Assembly (NCBI GenBank): GCA_947561395.2
Contig: OX387192.1
Location: 12,126,221-12,190,220 of the forward strand
From: Buxus sempervirens
Taxonomy: Eukaryota > Streptophyta > Magnoliopsida > Buxales > Buxaceae
Direction of reading: 5' to 3'
DNA: 64,000 nt
The notes beneath the pieces were generated by a model that did no database searches, was not told where the DNA came from, and worked only from the letters and a program-made list of their open reading frames with translations. The translations under genes were made by a program, and so were the position numbers. This document shows, piece by piece, positions 1,391-53,180 of this stretch (its first letter is position 1; each line of letters starts with the position of its first letter).

Positions 1391-1844
1391 GTATAGCATA
1401 TGGTTGAGAGTCATCTCAAACGTGTATATTTCTTTGTGAGTCCTACAATGATACTGAGATCACAAACACTTATTTCTGATGTTGTTCACATGTGGGATGC
1501 ATGTATTGGATGCTATGGTTGGATGTGACTGTTTAGTACATCCCGGACTTATATTGAAATCTATTATTGATTTATTAATCATGATCTTGATATACGTTAT
1601 TTGTTCTCAATTACTAAACTGTTTTACATGTTGATTTCTATTCCATGAACGAGATGAATGTTTATATGAGCCTATTATTCGAGACTGCTTATATGTGCAT
1701 GAAACTCCATTTTTTTGATTATGAACTGTTTATAGCATGCATGTGTTGTCTGCTGGGATATTCGTATTGTGCGCACCCGATTTCGGTCGCACGACGAGGC
1801 GAACGCAAAACGATGCGTGCCTCGGGATTTGTTTGGAGTCGCCA

Positions 1845-1866
1845 CTGCCTGACGGGGTGCAGGCAG
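1845..1866 (-). other. T3 terminal stem-loop
   Basis: CTGCCTG and CAGGCAG pair with an 8-nt loop, just upstream of the conserved GTGGCGACTCC. The same hairpin with changed base pairs is at 45864-45885 and, weakened, at 42317-42337 and 53067-53088. Confidence 0.6.
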
Positions 1867-2832
1867 ACACCTGGGTGCCTAAGTTTGTCTATTAAGGCTT
1901 GGTCTGCGGCTTGAGATTCTAAGTAGGTTCTCGGTTGTGGTCTGGGGAAGTCCGTAGACACCCCAGTCCACCCTGTCAAATGACGGGTCCCATAAGTTTC
2001 CCTGGTTTGAGTCAACTCAGTTGGTCTCTCACTCACCCGATTCCTAATTCAGCATTCAATTTTGGTTTAAGTCTGGTGGGACCGCCAAAGTGGTGTGGGT
2101 CCCTTTAATTGATTTTATCTTCTTATTATTGAATGAAGTGAGTCTGATTGGGTGGGCCCTGTTGGAAGGCCCACGGTATCCCTGGTGGGCTTGGTTAAGC
2201 CCACATACCCCCTAGTGGGCCTCAGTCTAGCCTGAGAGGCCCTTTGGGCTTTGATTCAAATGAATTGATTTTATTTAAATTCCAGTTTGATTATTTAAGT
2301 GATTTCTATGCACAAGTGGGCCGGGACTGTTTGTGGGCCCTTGAGTGGGCCACATAATTGGTTGCCAAGTGGTTTAATTTATCTTTGTTAATTGTGCCAA
2401 AATGGGCCAAGCATTGGGCTTGGGGCCTTTTACCTGGGCTCGGACTTGAAAGCCCAAGACTCTCTGAGATAAGGTTTGGAAACCCCACACTTGCTTGGTT
2501 CGATGGGCTTAGTGGGCCCGATAGGCCCTGCCCATGGTCTTGGCCAAACCATGCCTAAATCTAGATCAACATGCTTCAAAATTGGGCTTGGGTGGGCCTC
2601 CAATGGTGTGGCCCACTCAAATGGATTGATTTTATCTTTATTTAACAAAAGGAGTTTGTCGCGCTTGGTGGGCCCCGTTGGAAGGCCCACTGGGAATCAA
2701 TTTGGACCGGGTGTCCAAGGCCCATCTTGGGTTTCCGGGTGACCCGAAAACCCTACTGGTTCACCCGGATTGATCAAACAAACCAAAAATATGGCACAGG
2801 ATCACAAGATAGCAAAAAAGGGATTCTGGCAG

Positions 2833-2936
2833 TGTAGCCGGCCTGAGATGCCGGCTACGCATATAGGACAGTGTATCCGGCATTCTTCGCCGGTTACGAG
2901 TGAGCTTCTGTTGATCCGGCTTGAGTTGCCGGATCA
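2833..2936 (-). repeat. Palindrome array, ~39-bp pitch (T3, downstream cluster)
   Basis: Three hairpins, each about 25-27 nt, start at 2833, 2872 and 2911, so the pitch is 39 bp by hand count. The core stem is CCGGC/GCCGG with AT-rich or mixed loops, and outer pairs vary (TAG/CTA, GTAT/TTAC, TGAT/ATCA). It lies about 1.0-1.1 kb downstream of the TATA box in the sense of the element. The same ATCCGGC stem builds the cluster next to the TATA box at 3971-4168 of this LTR. Confidence 0.8.
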
Positions 2937-3950
2937 ACACACAGAAGCCTTTTTTCGGGCTTTTTGCATTGGGGTTTGGTTTTTGGGTCTTCTAGGGTGA
3001 TCTAGGGGTCATGTGGACTCCTGTGCGATCCCACAGTGGCTCTGGGGATGAGGAGTCACCTCATTTCAATTTCTTTTGAGATTCTTACAACAAAGCAAGG
3101 AGGGGGGACATATGGTTCCAATGGTGTGTGAAAGCATGCATGCGTGCATGTGCTAAAGAGACGACCACATCATGCTGTCCATGACTTTAACTAGGGGATA
3201 TAGCAAAAAGGGGTGTGGGGAACATGCTTTCCAAGAAACATGCATGAATAATATGACCTAGATGATCTAGCCTAAGCTCTTGAATTAAATCACTACCTTC
3301 ATGCTTAGTACACATGCAAAATTATTCGAGTAAGACCATTCAAAGGAGGGAATGAGGGGGTTACATGGGGTTACATTGGACGAGGTAGGAGAGGAACATG
3401 CTCCCCTCAGAAATGCTGGAAACCAACCCAAACAATAACTCATGAACTTAGAGAGAAGTGTGTGAGGACAAGGTTCCTATGCTCTTATGAAACCAGATGT
3501 GGACCTCTTGCTTTTAGTGGCTGTTATGCCATGAAAAAAGACAGCACAACATGCTCAAGTCACCAAGGAAGAGAGCTCATACCAAAGAAAAAGGAGAGCT
3601 TGGTAACCCCTTTAGAAAAAAAAATCTCATTTTAATATATGTGTAACAAAACCTGATAAGAAACCTTACCTTGGAGTCTTGTAACCTTCCTGAGGAGTGT
3701 AGGGATCTCCTTAAAGTAGAGATGAGGGCTGGAGCAGCTCCTTTGGCTACCAACAGCAGGCAGCCTCCTCCTTGCTTAGGCACAATGGAGAGAAAGAAGA
3801 GAGGAGATGATGGGAGGGCCTTGGAGAGAATCCCTTGGGTTTGGGGAGCAAGGTGGAGTGAAAGGAATGGGATTTCGGAGCAGTAGCCAAGGGGAGATGG
3901 GGTGGAAACCAGCCAAAATGAAGCCAACCCCAGATATGAGCTGCTGGTTT

Positions 3951-3961
3951 GCTATTTATAG
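3951..3961 (-). promoter_or_regulatory. TATA box of T3 LTR
   Basis: The minus strand reads CTATAAATAGC, matching the plant TATA consensus. The last palindrome of the upstream cluster ends 10 bp before it. Confidence 0.7.
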
Positions 3962-3970
3962 ACACATTAA

Positions 3971-4168
3971 TGTATCCGGCAACTCAGGCCGGATACACTG
4001 AGGCTTATTCATATCCGGTCTTCATGACCGGATACACAGAGCTTTCTTTATATCCGGCACTTAATGCCGGATACAAACATAATCATTTCAAAATTTAATG
4101 CCGCTGCGAATCTGTCGAGCGATCTTGCGCGAGAAAATCTCTGTATCCGGCCTTCAAGTCTGGGTACA
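3971..4168 (-). repeat. Palindrome array, 39-bp pitch (T3, TATA-proximal cluster)
   Basis: Hairpins with TGTATCCGGC/GCCGGATACA-type arms and 7-nt loops start at 3971, 4010 and 4049 (39 bp apart); a fourth, decayed one lies at 4142-4168. Their stems match the downstream cluster of the same LTR and differ from those of the other T3 LTRs in the window. Confidence 0.85.
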
Positions 4169-4759
4169 AAGGAAAGATAGTAAATCGAAAAATTACGGAT
4201 TTGCCCCTCGACCGATTCGATCGATTTGACACTTTTGAGCAATTACAGATTGGTCCCTGCGAATTTCAGTTTAGTCCCTGAGATTTTTATCAGATTTTGG
4301 ATATTTAAGATTTAGTCCCCGAGATATTTCGCTGCGTTGGCTGCCACGTGTGCAGCTTCTGCGCCACGTGTGCAGCTTCCGGCTTTGCAACCCGAAAACC
4401 TTGACAGCTCATATCTCCTTCATCCGAACTCCGATTTGAGCAAACTCAATTGCATTAGACTCGTATCGGAACTCTCTATCCAACGACCTAGGGCTAAGCA
4501 CTTGGCACGGGGTTCGAGGAAAAGTCAACTTTCAGCTCACCCTTAAGTTTGACCGCCCGCAGAACCTTCATCCGGACTCCGATTCCAGCAAACTCAGTTG
4601 CGTTGGACTCGTGTCGGGATTCTCTATCCATTGAGATAAAGCAAGGCAGCCAATTATCACTTGATCAAAAAGGTCAAATTTCGACCCCTCAGGGTTTGAC
4701 TTTTCTGCTAGGGTTTTCATTTTTAGCACTTCCAGGGATGCAAAAATAAGGTGCTTACA

Positions 4760-24139: not shown

Positions 24140-24246
24140 GCCCGTACTTTGTTTGCGGGTTGGTCGCGCCCGCAATTCATATACGGGCATGCTGTGCCCC
24201 GTATTAGCATTGCGGGCAGGACACGCCCGTAATGTATATACGGGCA
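24140..24246 (+). repeat. Palindrome array, 28-bp pitch (T1)
   Basis: Four hairpins start at 24140, 24168, 24196 and 24225; stems combine GCCCGTA/TACGGGC and GCCCGCA/TGCGGG. It lies about 210 bp upstream of the TATA box. Confidence 0.85.
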
Positions 24247-25212: not shown

Positions 25213-25356
25213 TGTATCCGACAACTCAGGTCGGATACAAGCATATCCCTTTGTATCCGACATAAGTTGTCGGATACAAGCAAGCCTTAATGTATCCGAC
25301 ATCATATGTCGGATACATATAGATGCTTGTGTATCCGACCTGATATGTCGGATACA
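25213..25356 (+). repeat. Perfect palindrome array, exact 39-bp pitch (T1)
   Basis: Four 27-nt hairpins start at 25213, 25252, 25291 and 25330. Each is TGTATCCGAC - 7 nt - GTCGGATACA with perfect 10-bp arms; the four loops differ (AACTCAG, ATAAGTT, ATCATAT, CTGATAT). The 12-nt spacers also differ. The TATA box follows 165 bp on. Confidence 0.97.
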
Positions 25357-25520: not shown

Positions 25521-25530
25521 CTATAAATAG
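25521..25530 (+). promoter_or_regulatory. TATA box of inner T1
   Basis: CCTATAAATAGGAGG, same context as in the other T1 copies. Confidence 0.75.
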
Positions 25531-28500
25531 GAGGCTCCTCCTTAAGCAAATGACCATTAACTCTTGCCAATAACTTTTGCCAAGAAGTTGGAGATCAAAG
25601 AGCTCCGAGTGAAGAGGGGAACTGCTGCAGTCTTGCTTCCAGAAGCCTAGGTAAGACTCGGACCTCTCTTTATTTTTCTGTTTTTACATTCTAGATCTAG
25701 ATCTTTTCTTCTACCTTTCTGTAGAATAAGGCCTCTTCTATGTGTATGAAAACCCTTCCCCTACTCAAAGTACCTCGAGACTCCCCCTAGCCGTAAAACG
25801 TGAAGGCGGGATCTAGGGGAAACGAGACTGGGGATTGATCCTAGTATTAGAACCTTGTTGGAATAAGACTTTTGATTCTATGAAAACCGTTTCATATTCA
25901 AAGTACCCCAAGATTATCTTGAAGAACCATGTTTAATAGGGAGAGAGAACTAAGGGAAACGATAATGGAACGGAACCATAGGTTGTTTTAGAACCCCATT
26001 TGATTGATCTAAATGCATGCTATATGTTATTATATTGTTAAAGAATGGATTTTCACTTACATACATAGCACTTGTTTTGTCGGATTTGGCTTGTATTTTG
26101 GATCTATTGTCGTCATTGTGGTAGATCTAAAATAAATAGTCCCAAGAAATTCTGGAATGTTCGTTATCGATTTCAATCAAGTTTATTTCAAATTGTGGAG
26201 ACCTCTAGGTCTAACCTCTTGGTTTTGGGTATTTTTTCTCACTTTTTGGGGTTCTTGGTATATCTTTTCTAATCAGAGAGGATGATGAGCCAAACCTGTG
26301 CCCCATTTCTTCCTAGAGGTTCTTCAACATATTTTTAAAATGGTTTTGACTTATCTTGCACGGATTCCACACACTTTATCACTGTTTGAGTTGATTTTCT
26401 TCAAAAAAGGCTTAACTTGACAGCAACTATACCCCAACTTCGGACACTCGTAACTTCATCGTCCGGATGAATTTTGGAGTGATTCTAAAGCCATAGGAAA
26501 GGTGGGGCTGTCTAGTTTATGCTTGTAAAATTTCATTAATTTCTATCAAGCGGATTTTTTACACCTCTATGTCGAAGTTGATAGGTCATTTCAGGTCTGA
26601 TTACAGGACCTGTCACTTCAACTGAGCGCCATGTGTTCGTTTTAAGTCCGATTCGAGTGATTCTTGTTTCTGAGTTTTCCTTTGGAAGTCTAGTTTTAAA
26701 TCCAGTTAGTTTAATAATTTTTTTGACTCCATTTGTGTCGTTGGTAACAGATTTACTCAGAACTGCTCAACAGCACTTTTCTGGGTAAATCTGTGATCTT
26801 CGGGGTCTGTTCGGGAGACCACCCAAGGCACATCCGAATGAATTTTGTATGAGGCTTATTTTAGTTGAAAGATGGCCATACAGACTTCATTCACACCAAA
26901 TTTCATGAATTTATATGGAGCTGATTTTGCTAAATGATTTTCCAAACTTGACCACTTGTCACTTTTTAACTATCTCCAACAGCACTTTTAAAAGAAGCAT
27001 AACTCCTAGGATTTCAACCGGATTTAATTGAAATTTTGCATGAGTCTCTTATTTACCATAATCTTTCAAATGGATTTGGTTTGATTCAATTTAAATTAGA
27101 TTTGAATGATTTCAAGACAAATGGTTCTTGCTTTTACCGAATTTCCTGGATTTGACTCAACTTGGTTTTGTGCAACTTTTGCATTGATTTCCATCTATTG
27201 GTGATATTCCAGAAGTGATATTGACGTAAAAGAGGATCTGTAATTCTTTTGGATTTTCATGTGAAGATATCATACATATTTGTTTAATCCTTTTTCAAGG
27301 TTTTTAATGATTTTAGCAAGCTTTCTTATTTTTTAGCATGAACAACACTTGGCAACCACCTTGTGTGGGTGAATGGGGGTGCCTAACACCTTCCCCCGTT
27401 CATAATCTTATCCCTTTACCCATCTTTGGATTTGATTTTCAAGTAGAGTCATGTTTACTCTAGAATTTGCCTTTTAGCTCTTTTTGATTATTTTTAAATC
27501 TTTTGGTGTCCATTCACACCCTAAAAATCTGAATGGTGGCGACTCTCCCACATTTTACGTTGAGCCCGTGTGTTGACGGAGGGGGAATCACCTAGGTGAT
27601 TTTTCCATATCTCGCAGATTCTGGATCTATCATGATCAATATGGTAGATCTAAAACAAAAAACCTGAAAGTAACCTGTAGGGTTTCATGATATGATTTTA
27701 AAATTGTTTTTGATCTTGGAGAAAGGATCCTATGGTCTAAACTCTCCCTTTTGATGTTTTTTAATCAACATGGGTTGAGTGGGGGTTCCATATCTCCACT
27801 ATTGAGAGATCCGGATCAGATCTGTACTCCAAGTAACTTTATTCTTCAATGATTTGACCAAGAGATTTCAATCTAGTTTTTCAACCTTTTAATGGTTTAG
27901 CCTAAAACTAGTTTTTTAGGTTTCTCTTTAGATTGGTTTTATCTAATTTTTTTATCTCAATTTTATCTTAATCATGAAACCTTAGAATGGTATGATCATA
28001 TTTGAAAGTTCTGAATCAATCAGGCTGTTCGTATGAAAAAACCATATACTCTTGTCTTTTGTGATTTTTTATGATTTTAATAGCAAGCTTTCTTTATTTT
28101 TAACATGAACAATACCTGGCAACCACCTTGTGTGGATGAATAGGGGTGCCTAACACCTTCCCCTGTTCATAACCTAATCCCCTTACCCATCTCTGGTTGT
28201 TTCTTTATAGGGTTATTTTTATCCTAAATTTTGCCTTTTGTGCTTATTTGAGATTTTGGTGTCCATTCACACCTAAACAGAATGGTGGCGACTCTTTGTT
28301 TTTAACTAATCCCGTGTGATGATTAGGAAGTCATTAAATTGATTTTCCATGTCTCACATTCTCCCAAATTGAGTCTATAAGGTAGTTTCTGGTGTAAGGT
28401 TTTTCTAGTGAAGTTTAGTAGTCATGGTACTTAAAATTACATTTTTCCTAAATGAGAATTTAAATCAATTAGGTTCAGATATTCAAATAATTCAATATTT

Positions 28501-31683: not shown

Positions 31684-33006
31684 AGAGCAAGAGAGGAATT
31701 AGGGAATTTTCGTGTGAAAAATATAATGAGAGAAAAGAGAGGGAGAAGAGAAGAAGAAAGTTGCTGGAGATGTTTAACTAGTCTCCATCAAATCGTGATT
31801 TGGGAAAATCCGTACGGTGGATCGACTTCAAAATTGGAGGTTTTGGTCACCCTGATGGATCTACAATATGAACGGTGGAGATTGGAATTGGAGAAACCTA
31901 GGTTGGTACGATTGGGAATAGAAGTTGGGTCCAGAATTAGAAACTCTAATAAGAAGAAGGATTTAGTGCATGAGGCAAGTAGTAACCCTTGAAAACTGGA
32001 GGAATTGCATGGTTTTGATTTCTGTGATTTATTATGGTTTAGATTGATTAGCCGGAAAGGATTTTACATGGAATTGAATGGTTTATATTTTAGAGTTTTG
32101 TATTCTTGAAGGAATTGCTAGAGTAATGTTGAAATCTTGGTTTGATCATGTAAACAATTATGGAATGGTATTGACTTGACACTAATTAATCTAGAGAGCT
32201 TTAGTTATGATTTAGAATGTTAGGGGATTAATTTAGACCAATGAAACTCGAAGCAAAAGCCTAAAAATCCGAAATTGGAAAATCTGGAAATTTATAGCAG
32301 AAATTGTACGAGCGCCTAGGATCGCCCAGGATCACCTAGCTTACCAAGGTAGGCGCTCTATGCAGAAAATTTAGACTTAGAGGATTTTTGTAATCCAAAT
32401 AAATTTCTAATAATTTTTCTAGTAACTTAATTATTCTAACATATTTATAAAGACCTAATTGAAGTATAGAAATTATAAAAATTAAATTTGGTAAATAACC
32501 AATTAATTGGAAGTCCTAATGATAGGTTAGAGTATGAAAAGGACTAAATTGGAGGCAACAACAATAGGAATAATACTAGCTTGTACTTATGGATTAAAAT
32601 TACCTTCTAAACTATATTTTAGGTCTGTAGAATATGCTAGAATTTAAAAATACAGAAAATTGGATTAGGGGTTATCTTAGGCATTAATATGGGAACTTGG
32701 ATTATAATAAGGGGATTAATAAGGAAAACTCTAAACAAGACTTGAATTACTTTTGTTTGTGCTTTAAATATGAATATTGGTTTCTGGAATTGAATAAACT
32801 CTGATTTTCATTGAATTTATGATTCATGAGTTTTATTTTGAATATAATTGGGAAATTGCATATGTAATCTTGCAAAAGGCTTTATTCGGGGTTTTAAGGA
32901 TTTGTAGACACCCCAAATTGCACTACAAGATGAGAAAATAAAGAAAAATATTTAATTGGGATTTGAAACAGGTAAAAAAAGGTTAAAATTTGGTCAAACC
33001 TGTTTT

Positions 33007-33104
33007 GTCCGCATTTGGTATGCGGACGAGCCTTGACCGCATTTAATCTACGGACATTACGTGAAAATGCGGACAAAGCGTGTCCGCAATTCAAATGTGG
33101 ACAT
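33007..33104 (+). repeat. GTCCGCA palindrome array (T1)
   Basis: GTCCGCA...TGCGGAC at 33007, GACCGCA...CGGAC at 33035 (28 bp on), a half unit near 33061 and GTCCGCA...TGTGGAC at 33082. The TCCGCA stem also builds both clusters of the T3 at 39371-42364, an unrelated family. Confidence 0.8.
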
Positions 33105-33295
33105 GGGTATTTTTGGGCATTTTCGTAAAAATTCTTTCTTTAAGCCTTGTTACTATTTTTAACCTCTTTCTAGGGTTTCATCCGTCCTTTCTTTTTTACC
33201 CTCATTGGTTCTCATATTTACTCCAACTCATGTTTCTAAAACTGAATTGGAACATTCTAGAACCTATTGAGACCACCCTTGCCCTTGCTCTTGCT

Positions 33296-33304
33296 TATAA
33301 ATAG
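33296..33304 (+). promoter_or_regulatory. TATA box of T1
   Basis: CTTATAAATAGAGGGCC, about 190 bp after the palindrome array. Confidence 0.75.
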
Positions 33305-34889
33305 AGGGCCGCTCCTTAAGCAAATGGCTGGAATTTGTGGCTAAGAATTGTGCCAGAAGTTGGAGATAGAAGAGCTCCAAGTGAAGAAGGGAACCCGTGC
33401 CTCTCTACTTTCAGAAATCCAGGTATGCCTTTCCTTTTCTTTTATTTTTCTAGTTTTAATTTCTAGGATTATTCTGATCTTCTCCCTTTCTGTAGAATAA
33501 GGCCTGTATGTGATTGCAACACCAAACCTAAATCCAAGTACTTCAAGTATCTTCTCTAAGTAAAACCTGAAGAGAGTTCTAGGGGAAAGGAGGGCAGGAA
33601 TGGATCTGTAGGATAGGCCCCTATGTGTTGTAATCTTTGATTTATTTATTTGTAATACTTTGTTTAGGACATATGTTTGTTTATTGTTGAAATATGGAGG
33701 AATGCCATGGATCTATGCTGTTCATAGCATTAGATCTCATTTCCTCCTAGATTTTTGATTTTTCATTGTTTTCGCCCTTTTTTATGTTTTTTTTTCATTA
33801 TTTTTTATCATTAGGCTAGGATTTTGGGTCTGCCATTATCTATATGGTAAATTTGAAATCAAAAGCCTTAAAGTGACCTCTGGGGTTTCATGAGGTGATT
33901 TTTGGTCTATTTTTAATTTTTGAGAAAGGACCCTATGGTCTAAACTCTCCCCTTTTGGATGTTTTTCATCAGTATGGGTGAATCTGGCTCAGATATCTTA
34001 ATTAATGAGAAACCTGGACCAGATCTGTACCCTAGATGGTTTTGATTCATTCTTCCACTTCACAAAGTGATTTTTGGTTTATTTTCAATTTTGAGAGAAG
34101 ACCCTATGGTCTAAACTCTCCCCTTTTGATGTTTTCCATCAATATGGATGTATTTAGTATTAGATTTCTTAATTAATGAGAAATCTGGGCTAAATCTGTA
34201 CCTTAGATTGTTCTAGTTCAATCCTGCAATTTTTTGTAAAAATAATTTTTTTAATTATGGAATTCCTAGATTTCAAGGATTTGACTTAGAGCTGTATTTT
34301 TTAAGTTTTTACTTTAGATTTGTTTTCTTTATCTTGATTTTAGTCAATCATGAAGCCCAAGAAATGGTATGTTCATAAGAAGGATCCAGAATTAATTGGA
34401 TTATTCATATGGAAAAAGCCATACATTTTTTTTATGCTTTTTCTTTACTTTTGATTTGATTTTTATTAGCAAGCCTTTTTCAAAACATGAACAATACTTG
34501 GCAACCACCTTGTGGGGATGAATAGGGGTGCCTAACACCTTTCCCTGTTCATAACCTAATCTTCTTACCCATCTCTGGTTTATTTTTACTCTAATTATGT
34601 TTTTCTATTATTTACTTTATTTGATTATTTTTGGTGTCCATTCACAACCTAAAACAAATGGTGGTGACTCCTCTTTTCTTTTAATCCCGTGTGATGATAG
34701 GAAGTCATTGGGTTGATTTTCCATGTCTCACAGGATTGAGTCATGGTTGTCTCTTGGAATTGGATATTTTGGTTAATATGATTCTTGGTATGGTTTGGAA
34801 TGTGGTATGATGTTTAATCGTTTCTCTTTTATGGTTGAGTGCTACGACTCCTGTGGTTAAGTTCATACTAGCTTTTACGGCAAATATGG

Positions 34890-38344: not shown

Positions 38345-38850
38345 TGTAAGCACCTCATTTTTGCACCTCCCGGAAAACCAGAAATGAAAACCCTGAAAGA
38401 TAGGTCAAACCCTAGGGAGTAGAATTTGACTTTTTGATCAAGCTTGAATTGACTGTCATACCCTATCCTAATGGATAGGAAATCTCGACATGGTTTCAAC
38501 GCAACTGAGTTTGCCAGAATCGAAGTCCAAATGAAGGAGGTATGAACAGAACAACCCTAAGGGTAAAACTATAAATAAATGCAGAAATTTAGTCCACGTG
38601 GCAAGTGTGCTCGCACATTTGACAAATGGCAAATTAAAGGGCTAAAGGATGAAGTAAGGAAAAGACAAAACACATGAGCAAAATATCTTGATTAAAATAG
38701 TATTATTTCATAAGAATATCTTAATTATTTAATAATCAAATCTTAATGATTCTCTGATTTGATGAGAGTTCACCTCACATCAAATCTCATTTATGGGAGG
38801 TCACCTTACATCAAATCAGACAACTAAGAGAGAGAAAAGGAAATTTACAA

Positions 38851-39164
38851 CCGTATACCTTATACGGACACGTAAAATTCTCTAATGATGAGAGATCTGT
38901 CAGAAAGATTCACAAATCTTATCCAAAATCTATCAGAAAATCCAATCAAATCAAAGAGAATCAAATAAACCATATTGAGAATACGGACAAAGCAAAATTG
39001 AGTTGAAAATGCCTTGTTTGCACTTCCCATAAGGTTTTGGAAGATTTTATGGAAATCTTATCCATTAGGTGAATCTGCCACATGGATGAACGTGATCATT
39101 GCGGACAAGATAGCCTGATCTGTATATAGTATACGGACATGACCAATCCATATATTATATACGA
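38851..39164 (+). repeat. CCGTAT palindromes, TATA-proximal (T3a)
   Basis: CCGTATACC-TTATACGG at 38851-38867, a weaker one at 38970-38986, then two 28 bp apart at 39120 and 39148, the last ending about 14 bp before the TATA box. The same stem forms the downstream cluster at 47135-47186. Confidence 0.75.
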
Positions 39165-39177
39165 TTTGGCTCGTTTT

Positions 39178-39187
39178 CTATAAATAG
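39178..39187 (+). promoter_or_regulatory. TATA box of T3a
   Basis: TCTATAAATAGGAACC. Confidence 0.7.
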
Positions 39188-40074
39188 GAACCTGACCCTC
39201 AGTGTAGGGGGTTGGCTTGTCTCTAAACCCTCTCCCATGAACCAGACTCTCCCTCTACCCTTCTTCTTCATCCCCTAAGCCCTCTTACCCCTCTTAGATC
39301 CCATAAAACCTCACTTAGCTCTTCCTTTCTTCACCTCCACCAAGAAGGAGATCTAAAAGGGTGTTGTGAATGTCAGCACCTCATCTTTGCACCCCCAGAA
39401 ATGAAGAAACGAAAATCTTAACTAAGAAAGTCAAACCCTGAGGGGTCAAAAAGTTGACTTTATCATCCGGTGCAAATCAACCACCATGCTTCTTCCCATT
39501 GAAAAAGAAAATCCGACACGATTCCAAAGCAACTGAGTTCGCTCAAATCGGAGTCCGGATGAAGAAGTTATGAGCTGGCCAAACTTGGGGGGAGCAGAAA
39601 TTGCCTTTGTGCTCAAGCCCAGTTCAACTACCCAATTTAATCCCAAAAGACAAAAGATCCCAACACGATTCCGATGCAACTGAGTTTTCCAGAATCGGAG
39701 TCTCGAGGAAGAAGATATAAACAAAATTGAATCCCAGGGAACAGTTTTGGCCTTTTGCTAAAAACCTGAATTTGCTACCAAACTCTAGCTCAGTGGATAG
39801 AGAAGTTTGACCTGTTCCAACGCCACTAAGTTTGCTAAAATCGGATATCATATGAGAAAGTTATGGCAAGTCAAAATTTCAAGAAAACTGCCTGCGTGGA
39901 AAAGATGCAGAAATGACAAAACAAATAAAAATTAGGAATAAAATAATCATTTTTATAAAATATCTTGATTTTTACATTTGAAATAAATAAAAAATCGGAT
40001 TTTAAATTCGGATAAGATTTAAAAAGTTTGTAAAATCGGATAAAATTTGAATTCCGTTCATTAAAAACGTGCGT

Positions 40075-40232
40075 GTCCGCATTGTATGTGCAGACATGTC
40101 GTGTCCACATATTCAGTGCGGATCAATCCTTGTCCATTCGAACAGCTGGTAGATTACGCATTAATTGTGCACGAGCTAATTTCGTCCGCACTTTAAGTGC
40201 AGATCAGGCCAATCCGCACTATATGTGCGGAT
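40075..40232 (+). repeat. TCCGCAC palindrome array, ~28-bp pitch, TATA-proximal (T3b)
   Basis: Units at 40075-40095, 40103-40123, a decayed one near 40131-40170, 40184-40204 and 40212-40232 (ATCCGCAC-N5-GTGCGGAT), the last ending 15 bp before the TATA box. Stem shared with 41526-41604. Confidence 0.85.
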
Positions 40233-40247
40233 CCGGACTTTTTTGCC

Positions 40248-40256
40248 TATAAATAG
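40248..40256 (+). promoter_or_regulatory. TATA box of T3b
   Basis: CCTATAAATAGAGGCC. Confidence 0.75.
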
Positions 40257-41525
40257 AGGCCAGCAGCCATTGTTTGAGGAGGCTCCCCTTTCCCATGTTG
40301 TTACTCTTCCTCTCCGGCGACCTGCAACCGTCCGAACACCCTTTTACCCATCTAAATCCTTTTTTATGCCCAAAATACTCCTCTAAACCAGCTATCCTTC
40401 CCTTTTTTCCCATACCCACTACAAAGAGATTGAAGGAGGTTGTCTTTTGGAGCAAGAAAAGAGCTCCAAGCTGTTGTTTGTATACCAAGGGGACCATCAC
40501 TCATCCAAATAGCAAGGTAATATTAAGGTGAAGGTATTTGTTGTATTTTGTTTAATATATCTTGGAATAAATCTCTCTTAACATATTTCATTTTGGTTCC
40601 TCTTAGATCTATTGCTTTTTATCTTGTTCTCACCATTTCTTTCCCATTTGCATGACATCGGAGTCCCCAACGTAAGGGGGATTCCTCACACGAGAAGGGT
40701 GGGAGGAGAGAGCTTGTACAAAGTAAAAAAGGGGGTCTTGAGCCATCTTAAATTTCTCTTTTTTTCTTATTGATCTACCTTGTATTTAAAGAGGGGTTTG
40801 TCCTCTTTCAAAATCTATTGTACCGCTAATGTCCATCCCCTCCCTTCTTTCAATCAAGATAGGTTGTTTGTAATTATGTCTTTGCTTGTTTTGTTATTCT
40901 GCATATTTTTATCCACATCCATAGTCACACACAAGAGCACTTTTGCATTCATCTAATCATGCATGTCTATGTATAGATTGGTATGTTATTTTTTGTGAAC
41001 ATAAAAAATAAGTACCATGTACATACATAAATAGTTTTCTTAAAATAAGATTAGTTTCCATTTTGTTCATTGTTTTAAGTGTTTCTTCTTTAGGAAATGA
41101 ACATCACACACCTATATTCACTTGTAGTGTTTTAGATCTATTTTAATTAATTCTTCTCCATTATAAATATTGATATGGGATTTCATTTTCATTTAGTCTA
41201 TTAGTAAAGATTACTTCCGGTGTTTCTAGTTCATTTTTCAAAGTATATTTGATCTTTTAGATATTTCATTTCCTTTGTTGTTATTAGATGTCTCATTTCA
41301 TCATCCTCGTGTATGTTTACTTTTATTAGCTTAGTTCATGTGTTTTTTTATTGATTGGATGAAAGAGCATGTGATTGGCTTATTAGAGTAAGCTTGTTTA
41401 GTGCCAAAAGTGGATATCCAAGCTATTGTGGGTTTGCTCAGAACCCCATAGAAACTCACGGAAACCCCTGAGAGATAGCCGAATAGATCCCTGTGGCAGT
41501 TTTGGCCATTTTGGGGATTCGGGTC

Positions 41526-41604
41526 AGATCCGCACTCCATGTACGGATTAGACCCGACCGTACTCCATGTGCGGATCAGTCCCAACCGCACTCCATGTGT
41601 GGTC
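41526..41604 (+). repeat. TCCGCAC palindrome array, ~28-bp pitch, downstream (T3b)
   Basis: Three units beginning near 41527, 41556 and 41584: ATCCGCACTCCATGTACGGAT and variants. The cluster is about 1.3 kb downstream of the TATA box, with the same stem as the upstream cluster. Confidence 0.85.
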
Positions 41605-42439
41605 AGACCTGATCTGCACAAGTCAGGCCCAGTGAACCCCCAAAAATCCTTCTTTTTGGACCCAGATCCATTCGGGCCTACTCGATTTTAATCACCTTGG
41701 ACCTTTTGGGCCTTTGGGTCAACCCAAACGCATTTTTTGAGACTTGGGCCCATTTAGGCCCAATAAGCATTGTGGGCCTTCCAACGGGGCCCACATCCAG
41801 TTTGGCCCAAACCAGGGCCCATTTCCATGAATGGGTCCTAAGGCCATTTGGATAATTACCCATGGGCTACATCCAAGCCCAATGGGCCTTAAAATCCTTA
41901 ACCCACTTAATTAATGTGAATATTTAATTAATCCTTAAATCAAATAACTTAAGCCAATAATTAGGGTTACCCAATATAACCCTAGCTGGGCCTTGGGCTT
42001 GACTAAAGCCCAACTTGGTAACCAATGGGCCTTCCAACGGGGCCCATATCCGACCCACTTCACCTAAGGTAATAAAATAAAATAAAGGGGACCCACACCT
42101 TCAGCGGCCCCCAATCAGACTCAATAAATAATACATGCTGGCCTAGGGATAGGGTGAGACTGAGTTGACTCGAACCAGGGAGACCCAAGGGACCCATCAA
42201 ACCGACAGGGCGGGCCGGGGTGTCTTCGGACTTCCTTGGACGTAACCGAGAACTTAACCAGAGTCTTTAGAAAGCCGCAGGCCAATCAAATTAGACCTAA
42301 ATAGGTACCCTGGTGTCTGCCTGCACCTCTCAAGCAGTGGCGACTCCTAGTTCTCCGAGGCGCGTGTAAGCACCTCATTTTTGCGCTCCCAGAAAAACCA
42401 AAAATGCAAACCCGGGACAGAAAGTCAAACCCTAAGAGG

Positions 42440-42890
42440 TGAAAAGTTGACTTTTTGATCAAGTGAAAATTGGCCACCTCGCTTTATGCCATTGGATAGA
42501 GAATCTCGACACGGTTCCAACGCAACTGAGTTTGCAGGAATCGGGGTCCGGATGAAGGTTCGGCGGGCGGTCAAACTTAAGGAAAAGCCGAGAGTTGACT
42601 TTCCTCGAATTCCGTGCCAAGTACCTTGCTTTATACCATTGGACAGAGAATCCCGACACGAGTCCAACGCAACTGGGTTTGCAGGAATCGGGGTCCGAAT
42701 GAAGGTTCTGCGGGCGGTCAAACCTGAGCAGAGCCAAAAGTTGACTTTCTGCTAAAATCCGATCCAGAGGCCTACCCCTAGGTCATGGGATGGAGGGCTC
42801 CGATACGATTCTAATGAAACTAAGTTTGCCCAGATCGGAGTCCGGATGAAGGAAATATGAGCTGACGAAATTCCCGGGCAGCAAAACCGG
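42440..42890 (+). repeat. Three diverged ~155-bp tandem blocks (T3 LTR 5' part)
   Basis: Each block holds CCATTGGAYAGAGAATC, CGACACG..TCCAACGCAACT, TTTGCAGGAATCGGRGTCCG and ATGAAGG, ending GTTGACTTT. Related blocks lie at 4380-4740 (minus), 38450-38550 and 39470-39860, so the feature is general for T3. Confidence 0.8.
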
Positions 42891-43080
42891 CAATCTGCGC
42901 ACGTGGCAAAAAGCTGCACACGTGGCGAGTTGCGCAGGAAAATATCTCGGGGATCAAATCCGTAAATATCCGAACATTCGAAATATCCCAGGGACTAAAT
43001 CTGTAAAAATCCAAGAATATCGGATTTTACCAAAAATTGTCAGGGACTAAATCTTAATTTTAAAGATTTTTACGTCCGGC

Positions 43081-43171
43081 GAGCGGCGGCATTAAATGAT
43101 TTTCATCATTTTGCCGCTCGCGCGGACGTGGCGAGCGGGCTTGCGCCCACCTTGAGCTGGGCGCCAAGGTG
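43081..43171 (+). repeat. GAGCGGC and GCGCCCACCT palindromes, TATA-proximal (T3c)
   Basis: A long hairpin, GAGCGGC...GCCGCTC with inner ATTAAATGAT/ATCATTTT, at 43081-43119, then GGCGAGCGGG and overlapping GCGCCCACCTTGAGCTGGGC and CACCTTG...CAAGGTG to 43171, 23 bp before the TATA box. Confidence 0.75.
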
Positions 43172-43193
43172 AGCGGCAGCCCTTTTTCCCTGC

Positions 43194-43201
43194 TTATAAA
43201 A
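43194..43201 (+). promoter_or_regulatory. TATA box of T3c
   Basis: GCTTATAAAAGCCGCG. Confidence 0.7.
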
Positions 43202-44400
43202 GCCGCGAGAGTCCTCATCGCTTGGGGTTCGGCATTTTTTGTGGTTCAGACATTTTTTTTTTGAGGTTGGAGAGCTTCGGTTGAAGACTTTTAAGGCGCA
43301 GTGCCCAAGCTCTTCCCATCCGAACCCTACCTGTCTCGGTCACCTTGGCCACCCCAAAGCCCCCCCCCCCCCCCCCTACCATTGATCTGACACTCTCCTG
43401 TTCTTGCTTCTTCTTCATCCCCACACAAGCAAGCGGAGGCCGGTTGCTGTGGTCGCTGTTGGAGCAAGAAGGAAGGTGCTCCAGCTCTTGCTTCGGTGCA
43501 AGGAGAAGCCCACACAACTCAAGCAGGTCTTAGGATCCCAGGTATTATTACCCACCATGCTTGATATACATATATTGAAATGAAATGAGAAGTTGCTAAT
43601 AAGTTTGCTAAGCTTGTTTTCGTCCCTGAGCACGAGTTTGTTCCCATGGTAGTTTAATATGCACTTGCTTCACTTAATATGCACTTGCTTCACTTGGCCG
43701 TATGGAGGGTCTCTAAGTAAGGAAGAGATCCACCGGAGCTTAAGGTATGTTGAGAGAGTTCCCCACAAACTATTCGGACCTGCTTAATGCTATGGCCGGG
43801 CCTGTTTTCGTTGCTTTAAAAGGGAGTTTGTTCCCTTATGTTAAGTGATCCACTGTACCCCTGTAAACCCCCCTCCTCCTCCCCTTCTTCGGATATTAGG
43901 GTGCATGCTTGAGGTTCAGTCGGTTGGAGGAAAGTGCATGTGCGTCTGCATATTGTTTTCTTGTTGATTTTACATTGCTAGACTTGCTAACATGCTGTTT
44001 GTTGCTTGTGCACCCTTGAGCATGCTCCCATCACCCCCCCCCCCCCTCCTTTAAGATATTAATGCATCTGTACCAGTTGTTTATCGGGTCTGTTTTCTTT
44101 TAAGAGATTTTGGGATGAAGCATGAAGCATGTTTAGATTAGTTTGAATACATGTTTAAGTGGCTTCTGGGGAGTGGTCGAAGCCCGGGGAAGTGTCCTGG
44201 GCATATTATTCGTGAAGTATTTTGAATGCATGTTTGTACTGGGTTTTCAAAACTTGAAATAAAAATGTGTTTAGATTAAATCCAAGATTGGTTGGGAGGT
44301 GTTCTAAGCATGTTAGGAGGCTAGTGGAACAGTTACAGACCGAAAAAAACCGGCCAGAGTTGGAGATCTCAAAAAAACAGAGAGCAGTGACCTGCCGCCC

Positions 44401-44665
44401 ACCTGGCGCCCACCTGGCTCTCACCTAGGAGGTGGGCGCCCCTTTCGGCCCACTTCCCGCCGAGCTGGCGCCCACCTAGCGCTCAGCTCGCGCCCACCTA
44501 AAAAACAAGTGAAATTCTCGCGCCCATCTCGCGCTCACCTCCCGCCCATCTCGCGCTCACCTCCCGCCCAGCTCGCGCTCACCTGGTATCGGGTGAGCGC
44601 CAGGTCAAATTTTCGCCCGGTTCTGGCGCCCACCTGGCGCTCACCTCAGGAGGTGAGCGCCAGGT
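44401..44665 (+). repeat. GGCGCCCACCT palindrome cluster, downstream (T3c)
   Basis: Dense direct and inverted GGCGCCCACCT, GCGCTCACCT and CTCGCGCCC words. Two clear hairpins: 44405-44440 (GGCGCCCACCT/AGGTGGGCGCC) and 44632-44665 (ACCTGGCGCTCACCT, 15-bp perfect arms). Vocabulary shared with the TATA-proximal cluster of this LTR and with the T2 at 48975. Confidence 0.85.
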
Positions 44666-45863
44666 CCAAAACAGGCCGAATTGTTATTTTTTTTTAAAAT
44701 TCCAAAAATACCCTTTACCATACCGCGGGGGGCTTCGCCCCCCGCACCCCCCACCCCTTTTGTTCGTTGCGCATCCAACTCGTACCTTGGTACGGGGAGG
44801 TACCCCACCCCGTGGGTTCCACTTCGCTTTGCCCACAGGGCCCCCGGGTACCTCCCCTTGGACCCAGCATAATGAGCCAGTTTTTTTTCTGACATAGTGT
44901 TTATCTTGTGTCTTTTTGTGTGATTATTGCTAGATATGAATGATATTTCTGAACCGAACCGGATAAACCAATAGGGTTTCTGGGTCACCCGGAAACCCGA
45001 CATGGGACTTGGACTCCCGGTCCAACTTGACTTCCAGTGGGCCTTCCAACGGGGCCCACCAAGCCCAATAAACACCAAAGCATGCCATTAAAATAACTTA
45101 AGTAAAATGAACAATTTGAACCGGGCGGGCCAAACCCAATACGGCCCACCCGAGCCTTGTTATGTGAAATTGATGCATGAATTGCGTGGTTTGGCCGAGA
45201 CCAAGGGCAAGGGCCTACCGGGCCCGCCAAAGCCCACCAACCGAACCTAGGAAGGGTGCAAACCCTAACTTTCGGTAACTTGGGCTTACAAGCCCAGATT
45301 TGGACTACGGGCCCCAAGCCCAGCGTCCAAATCACTTTGGCAAAATTAAAAAGATAAATCCGATAAAAAATACTTGGCCACCATGTGGGCTCACCTAAGG
45401 GGCCCACAAACCAGTCCGGCCCACTTGTGCATAAAAACACCTAACCTTCAAATCTGGATCTAAAGTAAAATCAATGCACCAACCAAAGCCCAAAGGGCCT
45501 CCTAGGATAAGCCAAGGCCCACAAGGGCACACGGGCTTGACTAAGCCCACCAAGGATACCGTGGGCCTTCCAACGGGGCCCACCCAACCAGACTCAGATC
45601 ACCTAAGTAATCAAGATAAAAGCAATTAAAGGGACCCACACCACTCAGGTGGTCCCGCCAGACTTAACCAAAATTGCATATCGAATTAGGAATCAGGTGA
45701 GACCTATGTAAGCTGACTCAAACCAGGGAACCCACGGGACCCGTCATCCGACGGGGTGGACCGGGGTGTCTACGGACTTCCCCGAACCACAACCGAGAAC
45801 AGACTTAGAATCTCAAGCCGCAGACCAAAAAGCCCTAATAGGCAAGATTAGGCACCCAGGTGT

Positions 45864-45885
45864 CCGCCTGCACCCCATCAGGCGG
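45864..45885 (+). other. T3 terminal stem-loop
   Basis: CCGCCTG-N8-CAGGCGG; against CTGCCTG/CAGGCAG at 1845-1866 the second pair is C-G instead of T-A. Confidence 0.65.
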
Positions 45886-46556
45886 TGGCGACTCCGAATT
45901 ACCCCGTGCCGCGTTTCCCACGCGCGCACAGCGCGCACTCCCATGTGCACCTCGTCGTGCGAAATCACATGGGCACAATGAAGCCAAGAGAAGGAGTTCT
46001 AGCCTCAAAGGACTTCCATACAACTCCAAAGAAGCCTCTCCTCCTCAAGGTGAGCTTCTCAACACTTTGTACATAACATATATGACATTTGAAGTAAATG
46101 GAGTATGTTTAGGTGTTACATGATGTTTGCATGTTAGTTTATGGTTCTTTTCTCTTTTCCTCCTTCTTTTCTTCATTTCTCCCACCTTTTATTTATGTGA
46201 ATGGGCCCCCATGGTGAGGGGAGGTGTCTTGGCCCAAAGGAGAGGAGGAGAGACCATGTTCATGTTGTCTAGGGTCACACTTCAAAACACTTTTCCATGA
46301 TTCCCTTCATCTTTGTTTTCTTGTCATTTAAAGGAGAGTATGTTTTCCTCTTTCTCTCAATCTCATGTACCCCATATTAAACCCCCATATCCCTTTCTTT
46401 TATTTGTTTTCTAGTTCTCTTTGAGTATGCTTTGTCATCACTCCATGTTATATGATGTTTGTATGCATGGTTTGGCCGCATCGGATATTGACATAGGCCA
46501 ATTGGGACACCACCTTCCCCTATGGCATGGAGGGAAGGGGGGATGTCTTTGGTACA

Positions 46557-47150
46557 CAAAAACAGGGACACTTAAGGTCCCTGTTTTACCTCCTTGAGCT
46601 TCAACTCAAAATAGAGAGGGAGAGGCCCCAAGCCTCCTCCCTCCTTTTTTTTTTTGGGTAAGCACCTATGGAAATAGGTTTATTTTGTTAAAAATGAATT
46701 GGAAAGCCACTGTGGATCAACACAGTGACCCACAGGTAGTACCAAACCCATGTAGGGTGGGGAACCCTGCTTCTAGCCTGGAAAGATCAATTTTTGTTAC
46801 TTTCTGTGCTGCTTGTATACACAGGGCGGTTTGGCCTGATCCGTATGGTATAACAAAAACAGGGACACTTAAGGTCCCTGTTTTACCTCCTTGAGCTTCA
46901 ACTCAAAATAGAGAGGGAGAGGCCCCAAGCCTCCTCCCTCCTTTTTTTTTTTTGGATAAGCACCTTTGGAAATAGGTTTATTTTGTTAAAAATGAATTGG
47001 AAAGCCACTGTTGGTCAACATTGTGACCCACAGGTAATACCATACCCATGTGAGGTGGGGAACCCTGCTTCCTCCTTGAAAAGATCAATTTTTGTCACTT
47101 TCTGTGCTGCTCGTATACATAGGGCGGTTTGGCCTGATCCGTATGGTATA
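46557..47150 (+). repeat. 297-bp tandem duplication in T3a
   Basis: Copies 46557-46853 and 46854-47150 are alike apart from scattered changes. Each starts with the hairpin CAGGGAC-N7-GTCCCTG and ends inside a CCGTATGGTATA palindrome half, so the junction falls in a palindrome. Small ORFs inside are duplicates of each other and have no homology I recognise. Confidence 0.92.
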
Positions 47151-47186
47151 TACGGATCAAGCCAATCCGTATGTAATATACGGATC
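47135..47186 (+). repeat. CCGTAT palindromes, downstream (T3a)
   Basis: TGATCCGTATGG-TATATACGGATCA-type hairpin at 47135-47159 and ATCCGTATGTAATATACGGAT at 47166-47186, about 29 bp apart; a half unit at 46838 in the first duplicate. Confidence 0.85.
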
Positions 47187-48270
47187 AGTCACAGAAGTGG
47201 TAAAAATTTGATTTTTCTTGATTAAACAAGATTAAAACTAACCCTAATTAGTTAACCTTAGACCAATATGGTCTTTGAGTAATCAAAGACCTCTTTTGGG
47301 GATTTGGGCCTATCTAAGGCCCAATAGTGGCTTCCTAGTGGGCCTTCCAACGGGGCCCACACCCGTCTTCTAAACATGGATCCATCCCAATAATGGATTC
47401 TAAAGCAATTTGAATATTCCATGGGCCCTTACCAAGCCCAAGATACCTTCTTTAATAACCTAAACCAATCAAGTTAATTGTTTTACATCTTTAAATCACA
47501 TCCAAAATAAATAAACCAAATCCGAAAGGGGGTTATCCAATGTAACCCTAAACGGGACTTGGACTTACTTTAAGCCCAAATTGGCGTACCTGTGAGCCTT
47601 CCAATGGGGCCCACATATCAAACCCATATCATCTTTAAGGTAATAAGATAAAATTAAATAAAGGGATCCCTACCATAGATGGTCCCGCCATGGCTTAAAA
47701 TTACAAATGTATATCAGATTTGGATTGGGTGAAATAGATCAAATTGACTCTACCAAAATTAACCAGAATGACCCGTTGTAAAATCTTGAATTTTTTTAAT
47801 AATAATTAAAAAATTTATTTTGGGATTATTAATTTATTTAAGTGATGGAAAATTCCGAAAAAGAGATTAAGTGGTTAAACCGGAAATTCTCGGGTGAATC
47901 CGGGTGGAAATTCTAATTAAAAAAATAAAATAAGAAGCAATAATTATATTTTAATTTATTGGTTTAGGGTGGAGTGTCGCAAGGGTAATTTGGAAATTTC
48001 AGCAATTCAGGGATTATGTAAATTTGGGTAAGTGTTAATTATATCGTATTGTAATAATTTAATAAATGATTAAGGTAAACTTGGTTAGATTCAATTAAGT
48101 GGGGTTGTATTTATCTAAATAGCAAATCAGCTGATCAAGGCTAATAAGATGCAGTGTTCCTGTAGTGTAGAGATCATGGAATTAAAGCATTTTGGGTAGT
48201 GTCTATTTAAGGAGTTGGTAGTTTGGCGAAGCGGCGGATCATGAGAAGTTAAAGAATCTTGGGCGGCAGC

Positions 48271-50946: not shown

Positions 50947-51187
50947 ACCTTTTTGTTTTGTTTTTGTTTTCAGATCTCGGAAAGGACGTTACCGGCGGGC
51001 ATATGCTTGGTTCAGGTGAGTTGGGGATTTTAGTTGACTCTGATTATATTTATTTTATATTCATGTTTTCCTTTACTTTGATATTGTAGACACCCCAAAT
51101 TGCACTACAAAATGAGAAAATAATGAAAACATTAATTGGAATTTAAAACAGGCCAAAAATGCATGAAAATGAATAATTTAAGCCTGG

Positions 51188-51292
51188 GCCGTATTGTATC
51201 CACGGGCTAAGCGCGCCCGAATTTTATATACGGGCACGCAGCGCCCGTAATACATATACGGACACCTTTGGACTGTAAATCATTTACGGGCA
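51188..51292 (+). repeat. GCCCGTA palindrome array, 27-28-bp pitch (T1)
   Basis: Units start near 51188, 51215, 51243 and 51271; stems GCCCGTA/TACGGGC and relatives, the last with GTAAAT/ATTTAC. About 200 bp before the TATA box. Confidence 0.85.
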
Positions 51293-51491
51293 CATCAGAC
51301 TCGTGCGAGTTCTGTTCTTCTCTCGATTTCTGAGCCTTATCTTTAGTCCAATATCCCTTTAAATGAGCGAATTACATATTTTATTCGTGCGAAATATCTT
51401 TGTGGATAAAGGATGGGCATGATCTTGTGTTTAACTCAAACTGAAACTCTATCTTGCCAAACCTTGGACCAACCATACCCCTATGTTTGCC

Positions 51492-51500
51492 TATAAATAG
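51492..51500 (+). promoter_or_regulatory. TATA box of T1
   Basis: CCTATAAATAGAGGGCC. Confidence 0.75.
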
Positions 51501-53180
51501 AGGGCCTCTCCTCAAGCAAAGGGCCACGAAAATTTGAAGTCTAAGAAGCTCCAAGAGAAGAGAGGAATCCTTGCTACCCTGCTTGCTCAATCCAGGTAAG
51601 TCCCTTTTCCCTTTTTATTTTCTGTCTTCAATTCTAGAGATAATAGGATCTTCTCCATTGCTGTAGAATAAGGCCATATTTTGTACTTGTATTCCTAAAC
51701 TTGTCTCTAAGTACCTCAAGAGTCTCTCTAGCCGTAAAACGTGAAGAGAGAGCTAGGGGAAAAGAGAACAGGTGGATCCCTAGAATAGAACCCCATATCT
51801 GTTTTTCTCCTTTTTTCTAGAATAAGGCCTTTGATTGTGTTTGTATAACCAAACCTGTCTCCAAGTACCTCAAGAGTCTCTCTAGCCGTAAAACGTGAAG
51901 AGAGAGTTAGGGGAAAAGAGAACAGGTGGATCTGTAGGGTAGACCCCCATGTGCTCTAATTTGTGAGATGTGGCTGTTTTAAATATCTTGATCATGTTTT
52001 AATGGTTTTTATGATGAATCTGAATGAATCACATGAATCTATGATTTTTATAGCATGAGATCCCCACTTTTTGATAAAATTTGGATTTTTCACATATTTG
52101 CACCTACAGCACTATTTTCGTGATTTTAGGCTATGATCTTGGATTTATCATGATCAATATGGTAGATCTGAATCCAGAAGCCTGAAAGTAAATTCTAGGG
52201 TTTCATGATGTTGTTTTTAAATCGTTTTTCATTATTGAGAGAAGACCCTACGGTCTAAGTTCTCCCCTTTTGATGTTTTTCATCAACATGGGTATTTTTG
52301 GTTTTAATTTTTTGATTTAATGTGAAATTTGGGCTTTATCTATGTCCTGGACTATTCAAGTTCAAATTTGAAATATTTTATAAAAATTATATTTTTCCAG
52401 ATTTCTAGAATTTAACTTGAAGCCAGATTTTTGGATTTTTCACTTTAAATTTATTTTATCTCAATTTTATTTTGATCATGAAACCCTAGGAATGGTATGA
52501 TCATATTTGAAAGTTCTGGATCAATCAGACTATTCATATGAAAAAACCATATATTTTTGTCCTTTCTGTGATTTTTCATGAATTTTATAGCAAGCCTTTT
52601 TTCCTTTATTTTAATATGAACAATACCTGGCAACCACCTTGTGTGGATGAATAGGGGTGCCTAACACCTTCCCCTGTTCATAATCTAATCCCCTTACCCA
52701 TCTCTGGTTGTTTTTTTTTAGGAGGGTTATTTTTACCCTAAAATTGCCTTTTGTGCTTGTTTAATATCTTGGTGTCCATTCACACCTAAATTGAATGGTG
52801 GTGACTCTTTGTTTTATTTAATCCCACGTGATGATAGAGGAAGTCATTGGATTCTGATTTTTTCCCATGTCTCACAGATATAGCGATCCTGTGTGTAAAA
52901 GTAACCATTTGGGAATGAGTTACGTCTTTACTACGTAACCCGGTTCTGGGGCATTACACCCGTCACCCGACAGGGCGAACTAGGGTGTCTAAGGACTTCC
53001 CCAAACCGTAACTGAGAACTTAGCTAGAATCTCAAAGCCGCAGACCACTAATAGACACCCAGGTGTCTGCCTACACCCCATTTGGCAGTAGCGACTCTCA
53101 TTCCCAAAATTCCCAAAAGAGAGGAATGCACTCACGTACACCTTAGTCAATTGTGCGGCCCGCAGATCGACGCACGCACA

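Follow-up and report, generated by a model that had tools for sequence, protein, structure and literature searches.

In a 64,000-nucleotide stretch of the Buxus sempervirens genome (assembly GCA_947561395.2, contig OX387192.1, positions 12,126,221 to 12,190,220 of the forward strand; hereafter the window), the long terminal repeats (LTRs) of an element family that we call T3 carry two clusters of short palindromes, one before the TATA box and one downstream of it, and the two clusters of an LTR have the same type of palindrome stem, a correspondence that recurs in T3 LTRs elsewhere in the genome. Palindromes of the same construction precede the TATA box in a second LTR family, T4, and lie ahead of genes for plant-mobile-domain (PMD/DUF7745) proteins. 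We read the clusters as putative binding-site arrays for a factor of two-fold symmetry, probably a PMD protein that is encoded by the elements themselves and changes in specificity, an explanation that we favour with moderate confidence.

Paired palindrome arrays in T3 LTRs

The unit of the stem is a 21-bp palindrome with the fixed core CCG-N11-CGG, arranged in tandem. This core occurs 28 times in the window, against a mean of 1.6 and a maximum of 5 in 200 first-order Markov shuffles, and the same core with a spacer of N10 or N12 occurs once each; at least four of the five non-core pairs are complementary in 16 of the 28 sites (shuffles: mean 0.035, maximum 1). By this comparison the window palindromes are not a product of chance, and 25 of the 28 fall within T3 or T4 clusters, the exceptions lying at 42200, 42872 and 45746. 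Throughout the 676.5 Mb of genome surveyed, TCCG-N11-CGGA is found 53,779 times and its N10 and N12 versions 1,724 and 2,683 times; the control, the same pattern in reversed letter order, gives 6,718 (N11), 5,883 (N10) and 16,416 (N12) and lacks CpG, so that its expectation differs from that of the real pattern. Deviations from the core are chiefly C to T (36) and G to A (46), mostly at both CpG positions, as expected from decay by deamination. At G000 C1:3.38-3.46 Mb, among the matches listed, runs of TCCG-N11-CGGA with a 39-bp step recur every few kb, as would be seen if one LTR type were locally repeated in tandem.

Among the T3 LTRs of the window (Table 1), T3c is nested in T3b and T3b in T3a, as judged from self-BLAST and the sequence. 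The CCG...CGG core and N11 spacing are common to T3a, T3b and T3m, with different surrounding letters, and T3c is unlike these in both word and layout, its words being of the form GCGCYCABCT. A sequence-only reading of the window had located eight clusters, all of which lie where it placed them, and had held that the two clusters of each T3 LTR share a stem specific to that element. From 53 loci around T3 LTR matches, which together with the window copies and locus L057 make 67 LTR objects, we find CCG sites in both clusters of 35 and GCGCYCABCT words in both clusters of 5. The 35, which include the near-identical copies L012 and L013, form five subfamilies, CCGTAT (8 LTRs), CCGCA (6), CCGG (18), CCGAAA (1) and GCCCGTA (2); downstream sites in nested, oppositely placed or unrelated sequence were dropped (both LTRs of L003 and of L018, L051, and the second LTR of L002).

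When upstream arms are compared with downstream arms, the subfamilies are most similar to themselves (rank 1 of 120 pairings), and the mean arm similarity is 0.714 within an LTR, 0.669 within the same subfamily and 0.301 between subfamilies; the similarity matrix and the permutations given below include W_T3c, whose words are chance ones, and L047, which has one match in a spacer, and the AAAT subfamily in the matrix is one LTR and the GCCCGTA subfamily two. The consensus letter following CCG matches between the clusters in 29 of 34 LTRs, W_T3c having been removed because both of its sites are chance words. Three of the five exceptions are G/A exchanges inside the T3m group (L011, L028 and L035), L020 is a hybrid site, and in L047 a spacer match was counted as a site. 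Both clusters carry GCGCYCABCT in five of the six T3c-type LTRs (T3c, L049, L050, L053 and L052, the last with a single downstream word); in the sixth, L051, it is confined to the upstream cluster, and T3 sequence in reverse makes up the later part of the LTR. The downstream region of L050 (about 1776-3144) is much enlarged, with 13 such words and an extended stretch of repeated CCCGAAAATGCCCTTT. The shared stem is thereby borne out, and unrelated stems are not as common as related ones among the LTRs read; what does not stand is the specificity to the element, for stem type belongs to the subfamily and not to the copy or element.

Most of this correlation is what descent predicts. On a tree of 65 LTRs, made from their initial 420 nt, 9 changes of type are required for the typed rows and 12 with the untyped rows as a group, against a shuffled mean of 36.2, so that type follows LTR lineage and the agreement between clusters lies mainly at the level of the subfamily. 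Within subfamilies, permutation gives p values of 0.0185 for T3m (n=18, including W_T3c), 0.042 for T3a (n=8) and 0.0675 for T3b (n=6, including L047). The placements of two nested LTRs suggest switches of type inside a clade: that of L016 groups by its 5' part with T3c, yet has CCGG in both clusters, and that of L010 groups with T3a, yet has CCGAAA in its upstream cluster.

The way in which the sites differ was compared in 13 downstream sites selected by eye for their centre. This centre reads ACTCAG in seven and differs by one or two letters in six, while the arms are CCGGC/GCCGG, CCGAC/GTCGG, CCGCA/TGCGG, CCGAA/TTCGG, or CCGTA with an imperfect partner, and the arm letters vary jointly at both ends of a site, through a whole array and in both clusters. 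A similar centre between jointly varying arms argues against replacement of whole clusters, and with it against the whole-cluster version of a transfer during reverse transcription that had been suggested, and favours recognition through the arms. In L027, L031 and L036, which are of T3m type, the first downstream site is the exact reverse complement of the site nearest the TATA box, and the second cluster may have been founded by inverted duplication. The position of the transcription start is taken from the TATA box; no TATA box of an antisense promoter was seen by eye at the downstream cluster of T3m, the one subfamily inspected for it.

The step between palindromes depends on the letter that follows CCG, a rule that is a new observation. 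In the window, sites in which two or more of the non-core pairs are complementary follow one another at 28, 29 or 39 bp in all 15 cases where the distance is below 200 bp. For a wider tally we paired same-class neighbours 20-45 bp apart, setting aside mixed-class neighbours (5 in T3, 2 in T4) and counting as T3 all sites not labelled T4 or PMD; related copies in it are not independent. Where a purine follows CCG the step is 38-40 bp in all 91 pairs (83 of 83 in T3, 8 of 8 in T4), and the single purine-class PMD gene, L066, has one intact and two decayed sites at a 39-bp distance. Where a pyrimidine follows, the step is 28 bp in 31 of 31 T3 pairs, 28-29 bp in 6 of 9 T4 pairs (the others 23, 38 and 39) and 27-28 bp in 32 of 38 pairs at PMD genes (the other six 41). 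In the 28-bp arrays the gaps between palindromes are often inverted pairs as well, which places a half-site every 14 bp in alternating orientation.

PMD genes and T4 LTRs with arrays of the same kind

A T3c-type element (L054, L055) has an organization like that reported for Ogre, a lineage of Tat Ty3/gypsy elements. At L054, the first open reading frame (ORF1, 516 aa) scores above the cut-off for both PF24924 (3.2e-22) and PF10536 (3.6e-19), so that a PMD/DUF7745 reading frame stands upstream and is followed by a gag-like CCHC frame; L055 matches RVT_3 (5e-16), rve (7.5e-11) and Integrase_H2C2 (3e-6). With a PMD frame before gag, RNase H and integrase present, T3 appears to be an Ogre-like family (Tat/OTA Ty3/gypsy). 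L057, also PMD-encoding and Ogre-like, has GCCCG/GACCG-type arrays in both LTR clusters. A search of ORF1 against PDB gave one match (E 0.95), which is not meaningful. The T3m-type element at L021/L022 has two LTR starts about 11 kb apart that are 96% alike over 1045 nt; its reading-frame pieces have a gag-like look and no pol was seen among them, so that it is apparently non-autonomous. Ahead of the T3m LTR of the window, the sequence matches that found ahead of the LTR of L022, and farther out, at 7740-8402, there is a gag-like fragment of CCHC type.

At least 118 matches in the genome exceed the cut-off for PF24924 (DUF7745). We examined 18 of these together with L054, a sample selected for diversity and not at random, in which the PMD gene of L058 scores 7e-26 and that of L056 3e-28, both over the Pfam cut-off. 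Fifteen of the sampled genes form one class by protein and layout, and palindrome arrays lie upstream of all 15. Eight of these arrays are of GCCCGTA type, six of AACCG type and one of ATCCGGCA type, and the final readable palindrome ends 14-53 bp ahead of a TATA-like stretch, which is TATATAAA at the GCCCGTA genes and looser, ATTTTAAA-like, at the AACCG genes, the pattern having been set to admit also ATTTTAAA and ATTTAAAA, the form found at the latter. In a tree of the PMD proteins the seven usable GCCCGTA rows fall together (support 89), as do five AACCG rows (82), with L066 beside the GCCCGTA group; L073 was disregarded for its wrong reading frame and L072 excluded as too short. At L058:3-2611 the gene upstream of the PMD/DUF7745 gene is also a PMD gene (3.7e-19 for its first reading frame), with apparent introns, and the array lies between these two tandem PMD genes.

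T4, the second LTR family of the window (TGTAGACA...TCTCACA), is present in four copies with three array types. Its array is of the same kind as in T3 and likewise precedes the TATA box, and no second cluster was seen in the four window copies. Two loci, read by eye, bring T4 and PMD sequences together: in L030 a T4 LTR with a purine-rich tract before it adjoins an antisense PMD exon, and in L059 a PMD gene with AACCG arrays has upstream of it a T4-like LTR in reversed orientation, whose arrays are also of AACCG type. Elsewhere in the window, at 22252-23430, a GGTACCTTGGGTA-like unit is repeated in short, degenerate copies that match one another at shifted positions.

Table 1. LTRs and palindrome clusters of the window
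Feature	Position	Strand	Description
T3a LTR, part 1	38345..39370	+	Interrupted by nested T3b and T3c; from self-BLAST and sequence
T3a LTR, part 2	45978..47776	+	End approximate; from self-BLAST and sequence
T3a upstream palindrome	38849..38869	+	AACCGTAT-N5-ATACGGAC (CCGTAT/ATACGG)
T3a decayed upstream sites	~39118-39166	+	CTG/CCA versions; 28-bp step retained
T3a downstream cluster	47137..47185	+	Two perfect 8-bp-arm palindromes, ATCCGTAT...ATACGGAT; 28-bp step
T3a downstream palindromes, individually	47137-47157 and 47165-47185		
T3b LTR	39371..42364	+	In T3a; flanks GTGAA (before) and ATGAA (after)
T3b tail	45936-45977		Beyond nested T3c
T3b upstream array	40075..40232	+	Type CCGCA[CT]; ahead of CTATAAATAG at ~40247
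T3b downstream array	41528..41604	+	Type CCGCAC; 28-bp step
T3c LTR	42365..45930	+	In T3b; GCGCG at either side
T3c upstream cluster	43143..43176	+	Words GCGCCCACCT / AGCTGGGCGC / AGGTGAGCGG; 12-bp steps
T3c downstream cluster	44401..44665	+	GCGCYCABCT words, many at 11-bp or 22-bp direct steps
T3m (minus T3) LTR	1768..4759	-	
T3m upstream array	3974..4072	-	Three ATCCGG palindromes; 39-bp step; adjoining TATA
T3m downstream array	2836..2934	-	Three CCGGC palindromes; 39-bp step
T4 copies	within 24036-28358, 32903-34732, 51085-52876		
T4a array	24140..24245	+	GCCCGTA type; 28/29-bp step; ahead of CTATAAATA
T4b array	25216..25353	+	Four ATCCGAC palindromes; 39-bp step
T4c array	33007..33100	+	GTCCGCAT type; 28-bp step; later sites decayed
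T4d array	51187..51263	+	GCCCGTA type; 28-bp step

What may read the arrays

In the explanation that we favour, each site would consist of two inverted half-sites 14 bp apart, each made of CCG and two or three type-specific letters. The arrays lie just ahead of the TATA box and, in T3, a second time at about 1 kb within what is presumed to be the transcribed part of the LTR. Their reader would most likely be an element-encoded PMD/DUF7745 protein, whose own promoter bears an array of the same kind, and it would activate or un-silence its own element and all elements with matching sites, even those without a PMD gene. The anti-silencing role is suggested by analogy with VANC (PMC5735166). A change in the specificity of the factor would carry along both arms, most sites and both clusters. 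That one factor reads the two clusters, possibly by looping, had been put forward from the window alone, and the idea gains from the arm similarities given above (0.714 within an LTR against 0.301 between subfamilies) and from the recurrence of similar types in T4 LTRs and PMD-gene promoters. Shared arm letters, exact spacing, a class-dependent step and the position at promoters are better explained by a symmetric factor than by RNA folding or neutral turnover, and since the arrays mark PMD genes, PMD is the leading candidate. The gag of T3m-type elements was tried in the same role; ten reading-frame pieces, taken from the window and from L021 and L022, had no match to a Pfam family above cut-off, the best relevant one being Retrotrans_gag at E 0.056.

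Several results weigh against this explanation, and chief among them is a pair of elements. The ORF1s of L054 and L057 are 81% identical over 181 aa, yet L057 uses CCGTA and the T3c relatives of L054, from which its own array type is taken, use GCGCYCABCT; either specificity changes fast or the reader is encoded elsewhere, and the Ogre ORF1 as the only reader is in conflict with this pair. The Ogre-class ORF1s number four (L054, L056, L057 and L061, the last read over 650 bp). In PMD-encoding L056, whose LTR landmarks are like those of T3, the matches over about 3.2 kb before the reading frame are no more than chance-like, and in L057 the two clusters agree more weakly (similarity 0.57). No PMD was found among the reading-frame pieces searched of the T3m-type element at L021/L022, which has arrays, so that the factor would there act in trans. 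Because LTR types follow lineage, independent switches are few, and array type tracks the PMD clade in three clades only, for which linked descent of gene and promoter would be an equally good account.

The strongest alternative, which we nevertheless think rather unlikely, is that a family of host transcription factors or repressors binds the arrays, that elements switch type to gain or escape particular host factors, and that PMD genes bear the arrays only as transposon genes subject to the same host control. One host factor per type would predict the similar types seen across T3, T4 and PMD genes, and the 81% identity of ORF1 in L054 and L057 beside different arrays favours it as well. The host would, however, need a set of specificities roughly as numerous as the array types, and the presence of arrays at all 15 genes sampled from one PMD class, with type tracking the protein clade in its three clades, points to an element-encoded factor over host recognition.

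Non-functional turnover, in which slippage or gene conversion homogenizes the stems within an LTR and the palindromes are a by-product, seems to us very improbable. Tandem steps, the exact reverse complements in T3m and the within-subfamily permutation values are all compatible with it; against it, centres remain similar while arms vary, spacing changes with arm class in both T3 and T4, and the placement next to a promoter is repeated in T3, T4 and PMD genes. Least likely of all is a role of the palindromes as hairpins of the genomic RNA, with an 8-bp stem and a 5-nt loop, that serve dimerization, packaging or strand transfer: perfect 8-bp arms around 5-nt centres, compensatory arm differences between types and the recurring ACTCAG-like centre speak for it, but arm letters common to the sites of an LTR are unneeded for folding, core deviations that would preserve a G-U pair (C to T, 36) are no more frequent than those that destroy pairing (G to A, 46), spacing depends on arm class, and the arrays at PMD genes precede the TATA-like box and hence lie outside RNA from that promoter.

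Returning to the symmetric element-encoded factor, we put forward more tentatively a wider form of it. PMD proteins may be retrotransposon-encoded, dimeric, sequence-specific readers with two grammars, CCGR with a 39-bp step and CCGY with a mostly 28-bp step, and a third word in T3c; joint switching of protein and targets would then split co-resident elements into networks, which non-autonomous LTRs join by way of a matching array.

Comparison with known systems

Transposon proteins that act on repeated motifs have precedents in plants, such as TnpA of En/Spm, which acts on repeated subterminal motifs, and the U3 of Tnt1 has repeated boxes that differ between subfamilies; to our knowledge neither has paired clusters, and the protein is different or none is known. 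Host PMD proteins, MAIN and MAIL1, have been linked in Arabidopsis to a promoter motif and to transposon silencing (PMC7156037, PMC9899485), and the available text of these reports leaves open whether PMD proteins recognise DNA directly. Their DOWN motif (CATGCAGTTT, in the MORC1 promoter) differs from the palindromes described here. Palindromes as insertion targets are the subject of PMC6911290. A literature search returned titles and abstract openings that describe no such arrays, in a coverage that mostly lacks subscription journals.

The elements themselves are closest to Ogre, of which 57% carry PMD as an extra reading frame; the likeness extends to a PMD/DUF7745 frame upstream of gag, RNase H and integrase domains and long LTRs, and the available portion of that account gives no function for the extra frame and is silent on site arrays in the LTRs, which are found here (PMC6317226). 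Retand likewise has an extra reading frame, the antisense TRP28, with predicted DNA binding and a proposed role as regulator of the element, and the part of the report available to us describes no target sites for it (PMC11963269). TRP28 (PF04195), considered as a candidate for the factor, gave no match in the genome and none in 14 control genomes either, so that this result does not show its absence.

The closest functional parallel is VANC of the Arabidopsis VANDAL transposons, a transposon-encoded protein whose short target motifs form tandem repeats in non-coding element DNA and vary between related transposons, the VANC6 motifs being present also in the unrelated transposon AT9TSD1 (as described in the available part of PMC5735166). 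VANDALs are Mutator-like DNA transposons with VANC proteins and motifs of 8-9 bases, whereas the carriers here are LTR retrotransposons, T3 and T4, together with PMD genes, and have 21-bp palindromes with 28- and 39-bp steps that are known from sequence. New in the present system, besides the spacing classes, are the similar centre with type-varying arms and the arrays ahead of PMD genes, and type-specific arrays at PMD genes and at LTRs of similar type put DNA recognition by PMD within reach of a single binding assay. If the favoured explanation is true, one genome holds tens of thousands of natural sites of at least six array types, and the T3 and T4 arrays would join VANC as a further example of private DNA addresses that transposons evolve for a regulator of their own encoding.

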